Source of the DNA: an uncultured beta proteobacterium
GTDB taxonomy: Bacteria; Pseudomonadota; Gammaproteobacteria; Burkholderiales; Burkholderiaceae_C
Assembly: GCA_903944555.1 (NCBI GenBank)
Contig: CAJASG010000218.1
Location: forward strand, 1 to 8,901
Direction of reading: 5' to 3'
DNA: 8,901 nt
The position numbers and the translations under genes are program-made. The notes below the pieces were generated by a model. It ran no database searches, was not told where the DNA came from, and was given only the letters and a program-made list of their open reading frames with translations. Below, piece by piece: positions 1 through 8,901 of the stretch; position 1 is the stretch's first letter, and every line of letters starts with the position of its first letter.

Positions 1-839
1 AAGAAGAGCAGATCCAAAGCAAGACGCTCTGAAATATCAGCTCCACCGCGAGAAAGCACGGCAAATTGTTGCAAAACACGGGAGGCCGCGCGCTTGCTGT
101 AAACGTCGTGTGCGCAAAGGCCCAATGCCATGGCTTCAAAATAACCCGCACAGAGTAGCCAGAACGTACGCGGCTCCAGAGCGGACTGCGCTGCTGCAAG
201 CCCCGTACACATGCCACACAGGCGTATGGCCGCTTGGGTATCGCCGGTCTTTACCAGCTTAAGAACTGCCCAATCCATTTTCTCCCGCATCGCGGAGGAA
301 TAAGACAAGGCGGTAAATGCGGATGGCGGCACGATTTCAAGCCAGCGCCATTCATTCACCCACAAATCTGCAGGATGTACCCGATCCGACCCAGCCAACT
401 CAAGAACAGCGCTGTACTGGGGGAACAGTGCAACCGGGGATGCCGATTTACCTTTGAGTAAGCCCTCCAGGTATTCGGTCAAAGCGAAACTGGCACGCTC
501 CAATTTGTTGGCTGCGTCATCACTGCACGACTCAGGCCGCTGTACAAATTTCTGTGCCAGACTTTCCATGGCGCGCAGCACTTTGGCAGGCGCTTCAAGC
601 CCAACCATTTCCAGGGCACCTACCGCCTGGTGCAATTGCTGGCGTGCTATGCGCAGTTGGCTGGCATCAAGGTCCGCCAAATCCGACCCGCGTGCCAACT
701 CCGCGTCCCGAACAAATCGGCGCATCGCCTTGGTTGCACCGTCAAGGGATTTGCGAAGCTCATCGAGCACCCAAGCCAACGGGCCCAGATCACTAACCGC
801 TAGCTCATTGTCGCCGGGAGCGGCAGGATTCGATGACAT
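1..839 (-). CDS. pilL: PilL/ChpA-type hybrid histidine kinase, N-terminal part (3' end off window)
   Basis: An open frame of 279 codons runs from ATG at 839 to the left edge, so only the N-terminus is visible. In the Pil-Chp system this CheA-like kinase autophosphorylates on Hpt domains and passes phosphate to PilG/PilH; the kinase, CheW-like and receiver domains would lie outside the window. Residues about 60-95 form a helix pattern with LHQAVGALEMVGL (His70), like the first degenerate Hpt-like module I recall at the start of ChpA/PilL proteins, where the phosphorylatable HxxKG core is eroded. The start is fixed by position: the only nearby upstream GTG meets a stop after one more codon. A GGAG lies about 12 bases upstream, farther than ideal. 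It follows pilJ by 53 bases in the same direction. Identity rests on operon position plus the Hpt-like pattern, so the family call is good but the domain layout is not seen. Confidence 0.82.
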   Translation of the reverse strand, partial: MSSNPAAPGDNELAVSDLGPLAWVLDELRKSLDGATKAMRRFVRDAELARGSDLADLDASQLRIARQQLHQAVGALEMVGLEAPAKVLRAMESLAQKFVQRPESCSDDAANKLERASFALTEYLEGLLKGKSASPVALFPQYSAVLELAGSDRVHPADLWVNEWRWLEIVPPSAFTALSYSSAMREKMDWAVLKLVKTGDTQAAIRLCGMCTGLAAAQSALEPRTFWLLCAGYFEAMALGLCAHDVYSKRAASRVLQQFAVLSRGGADISERLALDLLF

Positions 840-892
840 GGGTTAAGACACTCCAGGGGGTCGTTTTAGAAAAAATTCAGACTGGACAAGAA

Positions 893-3160
893 TCAGGCAA
901 TCTTGAACCGCGATACCGATTGCCGCAATTCCTCAGCCATCCGAGAGAGCTCGCGCACTTGGTTGGCAGTTGCCCGTGTCCCCTCACCGGTTTGCTCAGT
1001 CACCGCAAAAATGTGCTGAATATTATCGGCCACCACATTCGCGAGACCCGCTTCCCGGGAGGCAGAACTCGAAATTTGCTCAATCAACTCCGCCACTTGG
1101 CGCGACACCCGATCGATTTCAGTCAACGCTGTACCCGCGTTATCGGACAACTTTGCCCCCTCAACCACACCCTGTGTCGAACGTTCCATAGCGCCGATGG
1201 CATCTTGTGTATCGGTCTGAATCGCCTTGACCAGCGCAGAAATTTGGCGCGTCGCATCTGCCGAACGTTCCGCCAGTCGCTGCACCTCTTCTGCCACCAC
1301 CGAGAAGCCGCGTCCCGCCTCACCAGCAGAAGCTGCCTGAATTGCTGCGTTCAAAGCCAACACGTTGGTTTGCTCGGTAATGTCGGAAATCAACTCGGTA
1401 ATTTCGCCAATTTCCTGCGATGACTCACCCAAGCGTTTAATCCGTTTGGAAGTTTCCTGAATTTGATCCCGGATGGAATTCATACCACCAATCGCATTTT
1501 GCACGGCGGTCAATCCGGACTCAGCAGCCAGCAGCGATTGGCGCGCCACAGTGGCGGACTCTTGCGCTTGCACAGATACTTCGTTAATCCGTCCAGCCAT
1601 TTCCACAACAGACCGCCCGGTTTCACGAATTTCATGCAACTGCTCATTGGATGCGGCCAACAGTTCGGTTGACGTTGCATCCACATCGGCTGTCGTCTGT
1701 GCAACGCGAGACGCCGTGCTTTGAACGTTGGTTACCAGTGACCGCAGCTCTTCCACGGTGTAGTTCACCGAGTCGGCGATAGCGCCGGTAATGTCTTCAG
1801 TCACCGTCGCTTCTTGGGTAAGGTCCCCTTCAGCAACGGTTTGCAACTCGTTCATGAGGCGCAAAATTGCAGCCTGATTTGCATCGTTGACGCGCTTGGC
1901 ATCTTGCTCTTGTCGTTCAGCTTCCAGCCGCTGATCTTCGGCCACCACCTGGCGTTTGCGACTGTCTTGCAACTGAACATAAGAGAGGCCACCGGCGCAC
2001 AGCAGCGCGGACAAGGCCGCCACCATCAAGACCACCAGAGTCCAACCGCCGATACCCGCCTGTGAAGACAACTCACTTTGCAGCTCTTCCAAGTTACGGC
2101 GCAAAGGCTCACTGTCCTCAATGATGGAGCCCTGTGCTTCGCGCGCAGAAACCAGCCCCTGCAAGTTACCCAAAATCGCACCTGCCTGAACACGGGTTTC
2201 TCCGTACATTGCGATCAACGCTTCCAGTTGCTCGCGTGTGGCGGCATCTTTGGACGCATTCAATCTCAACTCAGAACTACCAGAAAGCAAACCCTCTGAG
2301 ATTTCCTTAAAGGTGTTCAGGTCCTTACCCAACAAAAACACGGCCTCAGGGCTCACGCCTTCGGAGGTCAAAAATTCATTGGAAGACTTACCAATGCGCT
2401 GTGTCAGCATCACCAGTTGACCGACGGCAGAGATTTCTACGGCAGGCGCGTTTTGCTGCAATTTCAAAGAAGAGATGGTTTCGGCTATTTCAAGCAAATC
2501 TGAGGACTGGCGATTGATCAGGCGCAGCGCAGATCCGATTTGCGTCAACACTTTTTGCTGCCCCATCACCACTTTTGCATTCTTCTCGGCACGGTCCACC
2601 AAAGGCACGACCTTGACCAAGGCGGGGGCATAGCTGTCGCCGAGTGCATCCAGGCGCAACTCATCATCACCGCTTTGCAAACCCCGCGTGACCTTTGCCA
2701 AAACGCCCGCACTTTCAGACACGTCAGGGAACGCCTGCGCACTGCCCACAACGGCCTGCGAAACCGATTTCGCCAATCGCTGTGACTGCATCAACGATTG
2801 CCCCGTGGCACCCAGCTGCTGCGCCACCTTGTTGGATTGGCTCAAGGTGTAGAAGGTCACAATCGCCAGCAGCAACAGCGCCACACCCAGCATGATGGAC
2901 AAAATACGTTGATGCTGAACCACCGTTCGCGCACCCAATCCTGGAACAACGATCAAGTCTTTGTCGATGACCGCCGCTTCGGCGACTTTGGCCGGTTCAG
3001 CCACAGCATCTTCCCTGGCCCGAGTTTGATCAACCTGAAGGGTTTCCACGTCAACGATGTCAATAGAGCCATCAGGCATGGCAAGACTGAGCTGGGAATC
3101 CAACCCAGACTCCACCGGCTTTTTAGAAAACAAATTTTTGAACTGATCAACAACGGACAT
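893..3160 (-). CDS. pilJ: PilJ, methyl-accepting chemotaxis receptor of the type IV pilus system
   Basis: This 755-residue inner-membrane chemoreceptor senses the pilus/surface signal and controls the ChpA kinase through PilI. An acidic N-terminal stretch of about 85 residues precedes the first membrane helix (about 86-106). The periplasmic part (about 107-370) holds two PilJ-type sensor repeats, recognisable by QSQRLAKSV (125-133) and MLTQRIGKSS (251-260). The second helix is about 371-394, then a charged coiled stretch, a HAMP-like segment with EGDLTQEATVTED (444-456), and the MCP signalling domain. The hairpin tip is EQTNVLALNAAIQAASAG (596-613), followed by GRGFSVVAEEVQRLAERS. The protein ends RFKIA, with no CheR-docking pentapeptide. 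It is longer than Pseudomonas PilJ (about 680), mostly through the N-terminal extension. It starts with ATG 20 bases after pilI, with AAGG upstream. The tip and HAMP match PilJ closely, so the call is firm. Confidence 0.96.
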   Translation of the reverse strand: MSVVDQFKNLFSKKPVESGLDSQLSLAMPDGSIDIVDVETLQVDQTRAREDAVAEPAKVAEAAVIDKDLIVVPGLGARTVVQHQRILSIMLGVALLLLAIVTFYTLSQSNKVAQQLGATGQSLMQSQRLAKSVSQAVVGSAQAFPDVSESAGVLAKVTRGLQSGDDELRLDALGDSYAPALVKVVPLVDRAEKNAKVVMGQQKVLTQIGSALRLINRQSSDLLEIAETISSLKLQQNAPAVEISAVGQLVMLTQRIGKSSNEFLTSEGVSPEAVFLLGKDLNTFKEISEGLLSGSSELRLNASKDAATREQLEALIAMYGETRVQAGAILGNLQGLVSAREAQGSIIEDSEPLRRNLEELQSELSSQAGIGGWTLVVLMVAALSALLCAGGLSYVQLQDSRKRQVVAEDQRLEAERQEQDAKRVNDANQAAILRLMNELQTVAEGDLTQEATVTEDITGAIADSVNYTVEELRSLVTNVQSTASRVAQTTADVDATSTELLAASNEQLHEIRETGRSVVEMAGRINEVSVQAQESATVARQSLLAAESGLTAVQNAIGGMNSIRDQIQETSKRIKRLGESSQEIGEITELISDITEQTNVLALNAAIQAASAGEAGRGFSVVAEEVQRLAERSADATRQISALVKAIQTDTQDAIGAMERSTQGVVEGAKLSDNAGTALTEIDRVSRQVAELIEQISSSASREAGLANVVADNIQHIFAVTEQTGEGTRATANQVRELSRMAEELRQSVSRFKIA

Positions 3161-3180
3161 GATGAAGCCTTAACAGTGAA

Positions 3181-3711
3181 CTAAGCGCTGATACTCAGAA
3201 ATTGAGGAGATTGGGACAAGGTACGCAAATTGATTTCTTGCCAGTGGTCCCCTGCGGAATCGACAAACCGATTGCCAAAGTAGTCCGGATCACCAGAGGC
3301 CGGTGGCACAGAGGACGTGAATGCATCGGCACCGCGCAAACCCGACAAACCATCGACTTGCAAAGCACAGTTAACCTCCAGCGCCGCGTGCAGCGTCACC
3401 ACACTGGGATCCTGTGCAACGGGTTCGGTACGCGCAACACCGCCCCCATCGGCGACAAAGGCGGCCATATCAACAACACCGTAAAGCCCCCCCCGGATGT
3501 TCAACACCCCACGAAACCAGGGACGGGCATACGGCACCGACTGCAGATTGGACAAAGGATAAATTTCACCGGACTGCCCCAAGGGAAGCAAATAGTTTTG
3601 CCCACCCGCCCTCACCGCAAGCCACGCGACTGAAACACCCTCGGTACGGGCGGCCTGGAGTCGACTGGCCAACCGGGCCTGAAGTTCTCGAATTGCTTCT
3701 CGATTAGCCAT
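3181..3711 (-). CDS. pilI: PilI, CheW-like coupling protein
   Basis: PilI is a soluble CheW-type adaptor that ties the PilJ receptor to the ChpA kinase. The 176 residues begin with a charged helix (1-25), then a CheW fold starting at VAWLAVRAGGQNYLLPL (28-44). The most telling motif is PWFRGVLNIRGGLYGVVDM (64-82), the CheW core that contacts receptor and kinase. The C-terminal part (INLRTLSQSPQFLSISA) fits the last CheW helix and strand. The segment around 125-155 (Ser/Pro/Gly-rich) looks like a loop insert. ATG at 3711 is 12 bases after the pilH stop; I see no clear Shine-Dalgarno there, so translation may be coupled to pilH. Identity comes from the CheW core and from the pilG-pilH-pilI-pilJ order. 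Confidence 0.92.
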   Translation of the reverse strand: MANREAIRELQARLASRLQAARTEGVSVAWLAVRAGGQNYLLPLGQSGEIYPLSNLQSVPYARPWFRGVLNIRGGLYGVVDMAAFVADGGGVARTEPVAQDPSVVTLHAALEVNCALQVDGLSGLRGADAFTSSVPPASGDPDYFGNRFVDSAGDHWQEINLRTLSQSPQFLSISA

Positions 3712-3723
3712 GGTTGCAGCGAA

Positions 3724-4089
3724 TCAATCCAGCGCTTTGATTTTGGCAAAAAGTTCGGTGGCATCCACTGGCTTGGTGATGTAGTCACGCGCCCCCTGAC
3801 GCATACCCCAAACACGGTCAGTTTCCAGGTTCTTGCTGGTGCAGATGATGATAGGAATATCGGAATACTCAGGCGTGCGATTGATGGAACGCGTCAACTG
3901 AAACCCGTTTTGCCCTGGCATGACAACATCCATCAGGATGAGATCCGGCCGCTCTTCTGCCAAACGCTTGAAGGCTTCATCCGCATTCTCTGCAGACCGA
4001 ACGACATAGCCGCTTTTTTGCAGCAGCTCTGTTATGAACATGATTTCTGTTTTCGAGTCATCAACGATGAGGACTTTGTTTATTGCCAT
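3724..4089 (-). CDS. pilH: PilH, single-domain response regulator
   Basis: This is a stand-alone CheY-like receiver of 121 residues with no output domain. Visible receiver residues are the acidic pair D10-D11, phospho-acceptor D54 (in LILMDVVMPG), switch T84 (IICTSKN) and K106 (YITKPVD). In Pseudomonas, PilH opposes or drains phosphate from PilG and affects the retraction motor; that role is transferred by family. The start chosen is ATG at 4089, whose A is also the last base of the pilG stop (TGATG overlap). A strong AAGGAG sits 7 bases upstream. A TTG one codon earlier would add a second Met but is a weaker start. The 1-base overlap implies coupled translation with pilG. Confidence 0.94.
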   Translation of the reverse strand: MAINKVLIVDDSKTEIMFITELLQKSGYVVRSAENADEAFKRLAEERPDLILMDVVMPGQNGFQLTRSINRTPEYSDIPIIICTSKNLETDRVWGMRQGARDYITKPVDATELFAKIKALD

Positions 4090-4487
4090 CAAATAGCTCC
4101 TTGCAAAACCAATCCAAACTGCTGCACGGCTTGCAGCAACTGGTCTTTGGTAAACGGTTTGGTTAAGTAATCTTGCGCACCCACCATGCGCCCACGGGCC
4201 TTGTCAAAGACGCCATCCTTGGAGGACAGCATCACCACCGGAACCGAAGAGAATTTCGCGTTGCGTTTGATGATGGCGCAGGTCTGATACCCATCCAGCC
4301 GAGGCATCAAAATATCGCAAAAAATTAGTTGTGGCTGGTAATCATTGACCTTGGCCAATGCGTCAAAGCCATCCTCCGCCAGCATAACCTCATGGCCACC
4401 CTGCTTGAGAAAGATCTCCGCACTGCGCCGAATAGTGTTGCTGTCGTCGATTACCAGGACCTTGAATGTCGATGCGGTTGTACTCAC
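4089..4487 (-). CDS. pilG: PilG, single-domain response regulator
   Basis: PilG is a 132-residue CheY-like receiver and the first gene of the Pil-Chp operon. In the better-studied systems the phosphorylated form promotes pilus extension. Receiver residues are D14-D15 (VLVIDDSNTIRR), phospho-acceptor D58 (IFCDILMPRLDGY), switch S88 (VVMLSSKDG) and K110 (DYLTKPFT). RLDGYQTCAIIKRN and KARGRMVGAQDYL are the stretches that separate PilG from PilH. The start is GTG at 4487 with AGGAG about 9 bases upstream; no ATG fits the conserved N-terminus. The 65 bases between it and the rubredoxin stop hold no clear terminator, so the operon may be read from the rubredoxin promoter or from one in this gap. 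Confidence 0.94.
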   Translation of the reverse strand: MSTTASTFKVLVIDDSNTIRRSAEIFLKQGGHEVMLAEDGFDALAKVNDYQPQLIFCDILMPRLDGYQTCAIIKRNAKFSSVPVVMLSSKDGVFDKARGRMVGAQDYLTKPFTKDQLLQAVQQFGLVLQGAI

Positions 4488-4552
4488 AAAGCGTTGCTCC
4501 TGAACATGCCTGGGCGTTTACGAACAACAAGCGCTGCTCAAACGATGCGTCA

Positions 4553-4726
4553 TTAAAACTGAACCATTTCGAAATCTTCCTTGCGTGCGCCACATTCGGG
4601 ACAGGTCCAATTCATGGGCACATCGGCCCAAGAGGTTCCCGCCGCAATCCCGTGGCCAGGATCACCCGCCGCCTCGTCATATATCCAACCACAAATAAGA
4701 CACATCCAAGTTTTAGCGTGAGTCAC
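4553..4726 (-). CDS. Rubredoxin
   Basis: This 57-residue protein is a rubredoxin, a small cytoplasmic one-iron electron carrier. The iron is held by four cysteines in two CxxC knuckles: C9-L-I-C12 and C42-P-E-C45. The aromatic and glycine pattern around them is typical (TWMCLICGWIYDEAAG and MNWTCPECGARKEDFEMV). Length equals the usual 52-58 residues. The start is GTG at 4726, giving VTHAKTWMC; the only in-frame ATG is directly before the first Cys and would cut the first strand. A TACAAT at 4763-4758 could be its -10 box, without a good -35. I recall rubredoxin next to pilG and divergent from thiD-hemL in many Burkholderiales. The electron partner cannot be told from the sequence. Confidence 0.93.
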   Translation of the reverse strand: MTHAKTWMCLICGWIYDEAAGDPGHGIAAGTSWADVPMNWTCPECGARKEDFEMVQF

Positions 4727-4774
4727 AGCTTATAGGGCCTTCGAATAGAATGCAACGATTGTATCGAGGCAGCG

Positions 4775-4789
4775 TGGGCAAATTGCCCA
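4775..4789. promoter_or_regulatory. 7+1+7 palindrome in the divergent rubredoxin/thiD spacer
   Basis: TGGGCAA-A-TTGCCCA is a perfect inverted repeat with a single central base. It lies in the 120-base gap (4727-4846) between the divergent rubredoxin and ThiD-like genes, 49 bases from one start and 58 from the other. It could be a repressor or activator operator, or a short RNA hairpin in the ThiD-like leader. No known regulator site was recognised, and no convincing -35/-10 pair was seen on the plus strand. Function is inference only. Confidence 0.3.
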
Positions 4790-4846
4790 GTGGCGGCCGA
4801 AAGATCGCCATTCCGCCTACGGATAAACCCGAACTCAGGCTTACAC

Positions 4847-5752
4847 ATGCAGGCATCAAACACCCCATTCCCTGACGATGATGATCAAGACGACGGCCCC
4901 TCGGCTTGCGTGATGGTTTTCAATGTCAACGACGCCAGCGGTGCGGGCGGAATAGCCGCTGATTTGACCACCATCTCCTCCGTCGGCGCCCACGCACTGC
5001 CGGTGATCACCGGGGCCTACGCCCGGGATACCTCCGAGATCATTGAGCACTACCCCTTCGATGACGAGGCGGTAACGGAGCAGGCGCGCACCATTCTTGA
5101 AGACATTCCCGTGCAGGTTTTCAAGGTCGGATTCGTCGGAACCCCTGAAAACTTGAGTGCAGTCGCCGGGTTGGCATCCGACTATTCAGACGTGCCCTTG
5201 GTGGCCTATATGCCCGACCTATCCTGGTGGGAAGAAGACCGCACCGACCTGTATCTGGATGCCTATAACGAACTGCTGTTGCCACAAGTCACTGTGTTGG
5301 TTGGGAACCACAACACATTGACGCGCTGGCTGTTGCCGGAATGGAACGGCGAACACAGCCCCTCGGCGCTGGACATTGCCCGCGCTGCCCATGAATTTGG
5401 CGTGCCCTACACCTTGGTGACCGGGGTCCCACTGCCCGAACAGTTCATTGACAATGTTCTGTGCGCGCCGGATGCAGTGCTGTACAGCCAGCGGTACGAA
5501 CGCTTTGATGCCGTGTTTTCCGGTGCGGGCGACACCCTGTCGGCCGCCATTGCCGCACTGATTGCCAGCGGCAGCGAACTGGTGGAAGCCGTGACAGAGA
5601 GCCTGAGCTACCTGGACAGCTGCCTGGAAAGCGGCTTTCGCCCAGGAATGGGCAACGTGCTGCCAGACCGCTTGTTCTGGGCACACCCCGAGACGGACGA
5701 CGAACCCGAAGAATCCACTTTTGAAATTTCACCCAATGCCACACGCCATTAA
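4847..5752 (+). CDS. ThiD-like (hydroxymethylpyrimidine kinase family) kinase, divergent
   Basis: The 301-residue protein has a ribokinase/ThiD fold. ThiD phosphorylates hydroxymethylpyrimidine and its phosphate in thiamine synthesis. After an acidic N-terminal tail (DDDDQDD, 10-16) comes [21 protein letters not shown] (27-47), matching the ThiD opening GxDxSGGAGxxADLKTxx[14 protein letters not shown] (93-103) matches KIGML, and [13 protein letters not shown] (225-237) is the anion-hole region. Differences: classical ThiD has GTGC here but this has GAGD, as in ribokinase and pyridoxal kinases; the usual TPNxxEA stretch is [10 protein letters not shown] (152-161), and the MxxKxG loop is not visible. 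It is therefore family-related, but its substrate is uncertain. ATG 4847 is preferred over an in-frame GTG at 4790, whose extra 19 residues look non-conserved. Its 3' end overlaps hemL by 17 bases, so the two are probably co-translated. Confidence 0.8.
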
Positions 5753-7052
5753 TCCGCAATCCGATCGCAACCAACAACTTTTTGAGCGCGCCGCACGCGT
5801 CATCCCTGGCGGCGTCAACTCGCCTGTGCGCGCCTTTAAGGCCGTCGGCGGCACGCCCCGGTTTGTTGCCCGCGCCCAAGGCGCTTACTTCTGGGATGCC
5901 AACGGACAACGCTACATTGACTACATCGGCTCCTGGGGCCCGATGATTTTGGGCCACGGCCACCCGGCGGTGGTGGAGGCGGTACAAAAGGCGATTCTGG
6001 AAGGCTTTTCCTTCGGCGCCCCGACCGAACGCGAAGTGGAATTGGCCGAGGCGATTCTGGAACGGGTGCCCAGCATGGACATGGTGCGCTTGGTCAGCTC
6101 CGGCACCGAAGCCGGCATGAGCGCCATCCGCTTGGCCCGCGGCGCCACTGGGCGCAGCAAAATCATCAAGTTTGAAGGGTGTTACCACGGTCACGCCGAT
6201 GCACTGCTGGTCAAAGCTGGCTCCGGCTTGGCCACGTTTGGCAACCCCACCAGTTCCGGCGTGCCACCCGAAGTGGTGCAACACACGCTGGTGCTGGAAT
6301 ACAACAACCTGCAACAGCTGGAAGAAGCGTTCGTGCTGCATGGCAAAGAATTGGCCTGCCTGATCATCGAGCCCATTGCCGGCAACATGAATTTTGTACG
6401 CGCTTCGGTGCCCTTCATGCGCCGCTGCCGGGAACTCTGCACCCAGTACGGCGCGCTGTTCATCTTCGACGAAGTGATGACCGGATTCCGCGTCGCCCTG
6501 GGCAGCGCACAAGCCGTGTACGCACGCGACATCCCCGGTTTTGAGCCTGACATCACGGTCATGGGCAAGGTCATTGGTGGCGGCATGCCGCTGGCCGCCT
6601 TTGGCGGCAAACGCGCCGTCATGGAGCACCTAGCCCCCATCGGCACGGTGTACCAGGCCGGCACGTTGTCAGGCAACCCGGTCGCCACCGCCTGCGGATT
6701 AGCGACCCTGAAAGAAATCGGCAAACCCGGCTTTTACGAAGCCCTGAGCCAAAAAACCCAAACCCTGGTCCAGGGCCTGCAAGGCGCGGCCGACGCTGCC
6801 GGCGTGCCCTTCTGCGGCGACTCCGAAGGCGGCATGTTCGGCTTCTTCCTGTTCCCGGAACTGCCGCAAAACTACGCCAAGGTCATGACCACCGACAACA
6901 AGCGCTTCAACACCCTGTTCCACGGCATGCTGGACCGCGGCGTGTACTTTGCTCCGGCGCTGTACGAGGCCGGCTTCATGAGCGCAGCGCACACCGATGC
7001 CGACATTGCCGAGACCGTGGCGGCGGCGGCCGACGTCTTTAAATTGCTATAA
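5736..7052 (+). CDS. hemL: Glutamate-1-semialdehyde 2,1-aminomutase
   Basis: HemL is the PLP enzyme that turns glutamate-1-semialdehyde into 5-aminolevulinate in the C5 route to haem and other tetrapyrroles; it acts in the cytoplasm as a dimer. The 438 residues show the substrate-side [13 protein letters not shown] (22-34), [15 protein letters not shown] (121-135), the PLP phosphate/stacking region GCYHGHAD (148-155), the PLP-nitrogen Asp in [11 protein letters not shown] (D245), and the Schiff-base Lys K278 in [30 protein letters not shown] (303-315) completes the class-III aminotransferase signature. Length is close to the family norm (about 426-430). ATG 5736 is chosen; a TTG five codons earlier is in frame but weaker. 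The last codons and stop fall in a dispersed repeat, so the C-terminal KLL may be repeat-derived. A strong hairpin terminator follows. Confidence 0.97.
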
Positions 7053-7101
7053 AAACAGGAGCTGCCTGCGCACATTCTGCGCGGGATAGAGGCCTATTTG
7101 A
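7044..7101 (+). repeat. Comamonadaceae-type dispersed intergenic repeat
   Basis: The stretch from TTGCTATAAAAACAGGAGC to GATAGAGGCCTATTTGA resembles, from memory, a short repeat scattered between genes of Rhodoferax, Polaromonas and Acidovorax (form: GCTAT...AGCTGCTTGCGC...GCGC...TAGAGGCC...TTTGA). Inside it GCGCA (7068-7072) and TGCGC (7078-7082) form a 5-bp stem with a CATTC loop. Only one copy is in this window, so the repeat status cannot be shown from the sequence alone. It supplies the last two codons and the TAA of hemL. Confidence 0.55.
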
Positions 7102-7139
7102 TGCATAAAAAAGGCCACCTGCGGGTGGCCTTTGTGCAT
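7101..7139. terminator. Bidirectional Rho-independent terminator between hemL and purH
   Basis: AAAGGCCACC (7110-7119) and GGTGGCCTTT (7124-7133) pair perfectly over 10 bp around a TGCG loop. ATGCA (7101-7105) can pair with TGCAT (7135-7139) as an outer stem. The A-run and T-run flanking the GC core let it act on both strands, fitting the convergent ends of hemL (7052) and purH (7156). Confidence 0.88.
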
Positions 7140-7155
7140 TCTGCAATACCGCAGA

Positions 7156-8310
7156 TTAATGCCGGAAGTGGCGCACGCCACTGAACACCATGGCCACACC
7201 GCGCTCGTTGGCGGCGGCAATCACCTCGTCATCGCGCATGGAGCCGCCGGGCTGGATGACGCAGGTGGCACCTGCATCCACCACCACGTCCAGACCATCA
7301 CGGAACGGGAAGAAGGCGTCGCTGGCCACAGCGGTGCCGGCCAATGACAGATTGGCGTGCCCGGCCTTGATGCTGGCGATGCGGGCCGAGTCCAAACGGC
7401 TCATCTGGCCGGCGCCCACTCCCATGGTCATACCGCCCTTGCAGAAGACGATGGCATTGGACTTGACGAACTTGGCCACCTTCCAGGCAAACAACAAGTC
7501 GTTCAATTCTTCCGCAGTCGGCTGCTTGGCGGTCACCACTTTCAGGTCGCTCAGGGCCAGTTCGTGGTTGTCGGCGGTTTGCAGCAGGATGCCGGAGCCA
7601 ATGCGCTTCATGTCCATGGCGTTGCGGCCATTGTCCCAATCGCTGGCGCCACCCTTGGGTAAGGCGATTTGCAGAATGCGCACATTGACCTTGGTCTTGA
7701 ACACCTCCAGCGCCGCCGGCGTGAAGCTGGGGGCCATCAGCACTTCAACAAACTGCTTGGAGATCTGCTGCGCACCGGCTTCGTCCAGCTCGGTGTTCAG
7801 GGCGATGATGCCGCCGAAAGCCGAGGTGGGGTCGGTCTGGAAGGCCTTGCTGTAAGCCTCCAGTGCGTTGGCGCCTACCGCCACACCGCAAGGGTTGGCG
7901 TGTTTGACGATGACACACGCAGGGGTGTTAAAGCTCTTGACACATTCCCACGCTGCATCGGCATCGGCAATGTTGTTGTAGCTCAGTTCCTTGCCCTGCA
8001 ACTGCTTGGCGGTGACCAGGGAACCGGGTGCGGGGAACAGGTCGCGGTACAGCGCGGCACTCTGGTGCGAGTTTTCACCGTAGCGCAGGTCTTGCACTTT
8101 GACAAAGCGGCCGTTGCTTTGGCCGGGGAACAGGTCCAGCTTGGGCGCCGCATCACCGGCGGGCACATCGTGGCCCACCTGCACCGCGGAGAGGTAGTCA
8201 CTGATGGCACCGTCGTACTGGCTAATTCGGTTGAACGCGGCCACGCTCAGGGCGAACTTGGTCTTGTCGCCATATGACTTTGTCAGGCCCTTAACTTCAA
8301 TCACCTTCAT
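7156..8310 (-). CDS. purH: PurH (AICAR formyltransferase/IMP cyclohydrolase), 5'-truncated and fused to a foreign start
   Basis: The 384-codon frame is the C-terminal two thirds of PurH, which does the last two steps of IMP synthesis. From residue about 15 it aligns with Pur[19 protein letters not shown], then LRYGENSHQ (75-83), [15 protein letters not shown] (111-125), [12 protein letters not shown] (133-144, with the catalytic Lys-His pair), TDPTSAFGG (159-167), [13 protein letters not shown] (276-288), GAGQMSR (299-305), [10 protein letters not shown] (330-339) and the terminal RHFRH. Full PurH is about 525 residues; roughly the first 160, most of the MGS-like IMP cyclohydrolase domain, are absent. 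In their place residues 1-14 read [14 protein letters not shown], an ABC-ATPase start. The formyltransferase part looks intact, but the ORF as written should not be taken as a real protein until the join is checked. Confidence 0.9.
8260..8271. other. Probable chimeric junction between two genomes
   Basis: On the minus strand the codons for G-D-K-T (residues 14-17 of the purH frame) sit where an ABC-ATPase start and PurH both plausibly read GDKT or DKT. Left of it the DNA is GC-rich (41 G/C in 60 at 8101-8160). Right of it is AT-rich (23 of 60 at 8401-8460, 23 of 60 at 8461-8520, 18 of 60 at 8701-8760). Gene content changes at the same point. A short shared word such as GGCGACAAGACC could have bridged the two sequences. 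Confidence 0.75.
8272..8310 (-). pseudogene. First codons of an ABC transporter ATP-binding protein (fragment)
   Basis: The 13 codons from ATG at 8310 read [13 protein letters not shown]. That is the usual first strand of ABC ATPases up to the A-loop aromatic (Tyr13), which stacks on ATP adenine. Nothing like this begins a PurH protein. TGGAG lies a few bases upstream, so this is a real gene start. The rest of the ABC gene (Walker A onward) is missing, replaced by purH. It is divergent from the small gene at 8357 across a 46-base spacer. The fragment is short, so the call is by pattern only. Confidence 0.65.
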
Positions 8311-8356
8311 GGCTCCAGCCTGTCACAAGAAGCTTAAAAATGCGAGAAAATGAACC

Positions 8357-8668
8357 ATGAGCCCGCGCCGCAACTATCCCAAAGGGAAGCGACCCCAGGA
8401 TCCTGAGCGCGAGATTAATACTTCTAATGAAAGTATCGAAGAACACAGTGATGGAACATATCGAGTTAGAAAATTAACTGGTTCATCTTCAAATAAACCA
8501 TATCGCTGCCCAGGTTGTGATCAAGTTATTCCGATGGCAACGCCACACATTGTTGCGTGGTTAGAACATGATGAGGAATCGCGCCGCCATTGGCATACAC
8601 CTTGTTGGAGTAAGAAAAATAATCGCGGCCCACGCACAGAGCGCACCCGAAATGCGCCCCGCTTCTAA
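8357..8668 (+). CDS. Small Cys/His protein of an actinobacterial family, function unknown
   Basis: The 103-residue protein starts MSPRRNYPKG, has an acidic middle, then a core YRCPGCDQVIPMATPHIVAW (49-68) and RRHWHTPCW (76-84), and ends RTRNAPRF. C51-x2-C54 with H80-x2-C83 could bind one zinc in a treble-clef-like fold; H64 and H78 are further candidates. From memory, Streptomyces and other actinobacteria have a conserved homologue with the same start, core and RNAPRF-like end, often mislabelled as an ATP/GTP-binding protein; no P-loop is visible here. Both tails are basic, so nucleic-acid binding is possible but unproven. It has AT-rich codons quite unlike hemL or purH, marking it as part of the foreign segment. 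It is divergent from the ABC fragment and converges on the aldehyde dehydrogenase gene 16 bases away. Confidence 0.85.
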   Translation: MSPRRNYPKGKRPQDPEREINTSNESIEEHSDGTYRVRKLTGSSSNKPYRCPGCDQVIPMATPHIVAWLEHDEESRRHWHTPCWSKKNNRGPRTERTRNAPRF

Positions 8669-8684
8669 TTAACCTTAGTAAAAG

Positions 8685-8900
8685 TTAACTCAGCCGACCT
8701 TTAAGAATCTTAATAACGCGCACAATTAATTTATCGCTGAAATAAGAACGCTTAAAGCTAGTAAATGCCAAAGGCAATTGGAATCGCGCGCGAACTACTG
8801 TGCGCGGATAAGTAAACTCTAGAATTCCTTCGGGGCCATGAATGCGACCAGAGCCACTATCTTTCACGCCGCCAAATGGCACTGATGGAATTGCTGCGAA
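8685..8900 (-). CDS. Aldehyde dehydrogenase, C-terminal end (5' end off window)
   Basis: The frame enters from the right edge and gives 71 residues beginning FAAIPSVPFGGVKDSGSGR and ending KILKGRLS. PFGGVKDSGxGRxHGPEGILEFT is the conserved C-terminal block of NAD(P)-dependent aldehyde dehydrogenases (ALDH superfamily), near the oligomerisation strand. The basic, less conserved tail after it resembles actinobacterial succinate-semialdehyde dehydrogenase-type enzymes, but substrate cannot be judged without the catalytic Cys and Glu, which lie outside. An internal GTG at 8882 is not a true start because the conserved block continues upstream of it. Composition is AT-rich like the neighbouring small gene. 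Confidence 0.85.
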   Translation of the reverse strand, partial: FAAIPSVPFGGVKDSGSGRIHGPEGILEFTYPRTVVRARFQLPLAFTSFKRSYFSDKLIVRVIKILKGRLS

Positions 8901-8901
8901 T

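Follow-up and report, generated by a model that had tools for sequence, protein, structure and literature searches.

Sequence comparison indicates that positions 8266-8901 of this contig are actinobacterial DNA carried on the contig of another bacterium, almost certainly because two unrelated fragments of the same sample became joined while the library was prepared or the reads were assembled. The window, i.e., the whole stretch of 8,901 nt (8.9 kb) analysed here, is the complete contig C218 of assembly G000, which comprises 4.07 Mb in 792 contigs with a completeness of 91% and a contamination of 1.3%. With the join 631 bases short of the contig end, about 7% of the contig is foreign (631/8901 bases). 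The first-pass annotation had also favoured a chimera of metagenome assembly or library origin, and this reading is supported by the unjoined native loci, the switch within five bases and the lack of a second instance in the genomes searched.

Gene content and origin of the two parts

The part contributed by the left parent (1-8265) was recognised by its collinearity with the same-genus genome G028 and by its protein families. It contains genes for CheW-like and PilJ-type transducer proteins and a phosphomethylpyrimidine kinase, followed by hemL and a piece of purH. The latter is a 3′ piece on the minus strand (7156-8270), which matches PF01808 from profile position 28 and lacks approximately the first 165 codons. 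Beyond the five bases of the join (8266-8270), positions 8271-8310 (minus strand) contain the start of an ABC-transporter ATPase gene of actinobacterial type, which is cut after about 14 codons and encodes 283 aa in relatives. A gene for an actinobacterial protein of 103 aa (8357-8668, plus strand) and the 3′ end of an aldehyde dehydrogenase gene (8685-8900, minus strand), likely of the succinic-semialdehyde type and cut by the contig end, complete the tail. Neither Pfam nor NCBIfam yielded a match to the 103-aa protein at E 0.001. The last reading frame, queried as 8688-8900 to leave out the stop codon, scored 21.3 bits with Pfam Aldedh, below the cut-off of 23, and its best NCBIfam match was NF006916 (E 2e-8, far below the cut-off of that family). 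No RNA family reached its gathering score across the window.

The actinobacterial identity that had been proposed for the right side is well founded. Positions 8266-8901 match locus L010, titled "uncultured actinobacterium", at 98.7% identity (8 mismatches in 636 bases) and without a gap up to the contig end, and their identity to L009, a locus with the title "Candidatus Nanopelagicaceae bacterium", is 96.4%. When 8000-8901 was used as the blastn query, the eight closest actinobacterial loci matched only from 8266 rightward, and neither these loci nor their whole genomes contained a match to the left of this position. Starting from the minus-strand ATG, the native ATPase gene encodes 283 aa and is closed by a stop codon in seven of the eight loci, and in the eighth it extends past the edge of the locus. 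Throughout the genus of the L010 genome, 119 of 135 genomes match, with at most three candidates scored per genome, and the leftmost match begins at 8266. A phage source was considered and rejected, as 8240-8901 produced zero blastn matches to 50,697 phage records.

Among 465 relatives of the 103-aa protein, 80 were taken as loci, and their titles are those of actinobacteria of various names; five loci, all from actinobacterial MAGs, encode the protein at 99% identity. The protein also occurs in genomes titled Nanopelagicaceae. Seven MAG loci (L011, L012, L023, L045, L053, L054 and L081) that encode relatives 68-98% identical are titled Bifidobacterium breve or Streptomyces griseus, and these titles look doubtful.

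The left parent is likely a betaproteobacterium; its genus is probably Rhodoferax or a close neighbour, as suggested by two PurH homologues with a source name that starts with "Rhod". Bases 1-8265 are collinear in a single piece with G028:C111:21723-29980 at 81% identity, and the same-genus genome G044 aligns in one piece from base 67 onward at 78%. The remaining six genomes of the eight compared each align as two main blocks, split near the hemL-purH boundary, and in G022 purH is placed far from the rest of the stretch. With four candidates scored per genome, 87 of the 103 genomes of the left genus, G000 included, match the interval 8000-8901, and their purH matches stop at 8286 or earlier, mostly at 8262-8270 (blastn). 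The sole scored match beyond 8286 in this genus is one of 41 bases in G040, touching 8266-8306. It was rejected as a second junction because its frame reads VIEFKGVSKSFGDR...GPNGAGKST, a common start of ABC-type ATPases; no purH sequence was noticed near it in the reading frames of the 501 bases read. The blastn and genus-wide matches assign the two sides of the window to different lineages.

Base composition also changes along the contig. The G+C content is 57.2% in 1-8265 versus 45.8% in 8271-8901. The fall from about 68% to 30-38% reported earlier is overstated and describes single blocks: of ten full 60-base blocks counted from 8261, two have 33-35% G+C and eight have 43-57%, with the proviso that the earlier blocks may have been placed differently. 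The tetranucleotide comparison that had been recommended yielded a correlation of 0.20 between the tail and the left part, whereas 39 overlapping, tail-sized pieces taken from the left part gave at least 0.51 (median 0.68) when each was set against the remainder of that part. Against the rest of L010, the tail reached 0.59 and the same 39 pieces ranged from 0.00 to 0.49.

Position of the join

A join between an ABC-transporter start and purH had been noted within 8255-8310. The sequence does show this join, and blastn together with letter-by-letter comparison of loci narrows it to 8266-8270. The left-side loci, which consist of the loci from 29 relatives and of contig C131 of the same assembly, all agree with the window at 8265 (30 of 30) and in no case at 8271-8274. 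Agreement of the right-side loci is zero of eight at 8263-8265, eight of eight at 8266-8269, seven of eight at 8270 and again eight of eight at 8271. Because agreement switches from one set to the other in this interval, the join must lie within these five bases, GTCGC, which are compatible with both parents. GTCGCT is found at this position in 19 of the 30 left-side loci, 11 of the 30 differ from GTCGC, and seven of the eight right-side loci have GTCGC. The nearest known left sequence at the join is that of C131, which is 90% identical, and the exact letters of the left parent are inferred from relatives only.

The overlap does not extend to the shared protein word GDKT that had been suggested. 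Five DNA bases are shared; at this site, seven of the eight loci with a native ABC homologue encode GDFT or GDFK and one encodes DDFT, and native PurH reads SDKT, SEKT, TDKT and similar words.

The fused reading frame

The frame at 7156-8310 (minus strand) encodes 384 aa, beginning as an ABC ATPase and continuing as PurH from about residue 15. A Pfam search detected PF01808 alone, from profile position 28. PF02142 (MGS-like) is absent, so the fused frame lacks the N-terminal PF02142 that a functional PurH requires in addition to PF01808. Among the best 120 of 7999 scored homologues, 119 have both PurH domains, and the remaining one (P0087) is a 400-aa piece with ordinary PurH sequence at its beginning. 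The words KSYGD, KGLTK and VIEVKGL occur in none of these best 120.

Purine genes elsewhere in the assembly

Within G000, the only matches to PF01808 are on C218 and in the opening bases of C131, and a complete second purH was not found there. Positions 1-168 of C131 overlap 8111-8282 of the window at 90% identity (92% when the query ends at 8270), and C131 runs on from this overlap into the front of purH that is absent from C218. We consider that C131 shows the native order because the loci of relatives align along it: 30 of 31 loci (29 genomes) do so over about 1.6 kb, L114 in two pieces, and the remaining locus, L096, has 645 bases aligned. C131 is probably from another strain. The presence in one bin of two contigs that overlap inside purH at 90% identity suggests that strains are mixed in this bin.

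Apart from the tail, G000 contains nothing of the actinobacterial locus but two matches within the ABC gene, 40 and 48 bases long, and therefore no reciprocal junction was found in the assembly. With three or four candidates scored per genome and G000 91% complete, a reciprocal product or a second purH may have escaped detection.

Recombination in a living cell as an improbable alternative

According to a different explanation, illegitimate recombination in a living cell of the left genus placed actinobacterial DNA in purH and left the cell without the IMP cyclohydrolase part. The join is clean and in frame, it has an overlap of five bases, and the window contains no N, all of which would agree with such an event; the chance that a random join is in frame is one in three. 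Nevertheless, the tail tracks the donor locus without a gap, at the identity given above, up to the contig end, and families of mobile elements are not represented among the eight proteins analysed, a set that does not cover two further reading frames at 3724-4487, and with the far boundary lying beyond the contig. Such an event would also have interrupted the one purH that was found in the bin and removed PF02142, and the other half of a purH is present on C131. Horizontal transfer or recombination would lead one to expect recurrence in related genomes, and the search of both genera did not find it. The junction 23-mer, with up to two mismatches allowed, occurs in one of the 103 genomes of the left genus, namely G000 itself, and in none of the other 102; in the genus of the right parent, none of the 119 matching genomes (135 searched) extends to the left of 8266. 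We therefore regard recombination in the cell as very improbable. Equally hard to credit is its consequence, a left-genus bacterium in which actinobacterial DNA, by insertion or replacement, cut purH and left an AICAR transformylase on its own, beginning with an ABC-type start, in a cell that requires purines. If true, this would be a rare case of a central purine gene disrupted by DNA from another phylum.

An artefact is favoured because each parental locus exists unjoined elsewhere in its own lineage (the 283-aa ABC gene in one, purH with its adjoining sequence in the other), the switch occurs within five bases, neither a second instance nor a reciprocal product was found in the genomes searched, and the join is near the contig end.

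Origin of the probable artefact

An overlap of at least five bases arose in 0.5% of 400,000 simulated joins between the left locus L129 and the right locus L010. The observed overlap exceeds that of the usual random join and therefore fits mis-annealing or template switching, and it is compatible with recombination also. In our opinion, it favours a physical chimeric fragment with microhomology, with the reservation that illegitimate recombination in cells uses microhomology too. Under the artefact reading, strands of the two organisms would have annealed at the five shared bases, or a polymerase would have switched template over them, and the assembler would then have carried the contig on into the chimeric fragment. 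Strain variation had probably interrupted the correct path within purH, which would explain the extension into the chimera. The encoded fusion protein would then be present in no cell.

The artefact might instead be a pure mis-join by software of contig or scaffold ends from the two organisms, without any chimeric molecule. The short distance from the join to the contig end would suit this variant, as would the fact that C131 likewise ends inside purH and that the assembly was therefore broken there. However, the five shared bases are far fewer than the usual k-mer or overlap lengths, and a k-mer assembler cannot make a join unaided over so short an overlap; a run of N is also absent. Within the artefact's overall probability, we assign this variant an unlikely but appreciable minority share and prefer a chimeric fragment.

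Similar artefacts have been described. The GUNC paper (PMC8201837) describes misassembled chimeric contigs in metagenome-assembled genomes, in which, as in C218, fragments of two lineages are abruptly joined in one contig; the present case differs in that about 7% is foreign. Chimeric reads from library preparation with short microhomology at the junction (PMC3411829; PMC8674242) resemble C218 in that unrelated fragments are joined over a short overlap, whereas those chimeras were seen in reads and the join in C218 is seen in an assembled contig. A study of Salmonella rearrangements by 454 reads of cultures used overlap cut-offs of 7-9 bases for separating real rearrangements from ligation chimeras, and 8-12 bases were deduced after verification (PMC3411829). 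The five bases of C218 fall below both ranges, which were derived from other data.

The value of the finding is chiefly cautionary. The final 631 bases of the contig and the fused reading frame should be excluded from the bin, and this frame should not be interpreted as a gene fusion or a cross-phylum gene transfer.

The region between hemL and purH

The end of hemL and the gap between hemL and purH (7035-7112) carry an interspersed repeat of about 75 bases, which is present at 40 or more places in G000 (98 candidates, of which 40 were scored and all 40 matched). In an alignment of 12 copies, the repeat resembles TTGCTAT...AGCTGCYTGCGCA...CTAGAGGCC.ATTTGATGC.TAAA with variations, and genomes of the same genus also have many copies. 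A relationship to BRE, the Beta-proteobacterial repeat element (PMC3110155), is possible. At 7110-7133, between the stop codons of the convergent hemL and purH genes, there is a perfect inverted repeat with arms of 10 bases and a loop of 4 (AAAGGCCACC / GGTGGCCTTT). The run of A to its left corresponds to T on the purH strand, and judged from this arrangement the structure looks like a putative terminator of purH.
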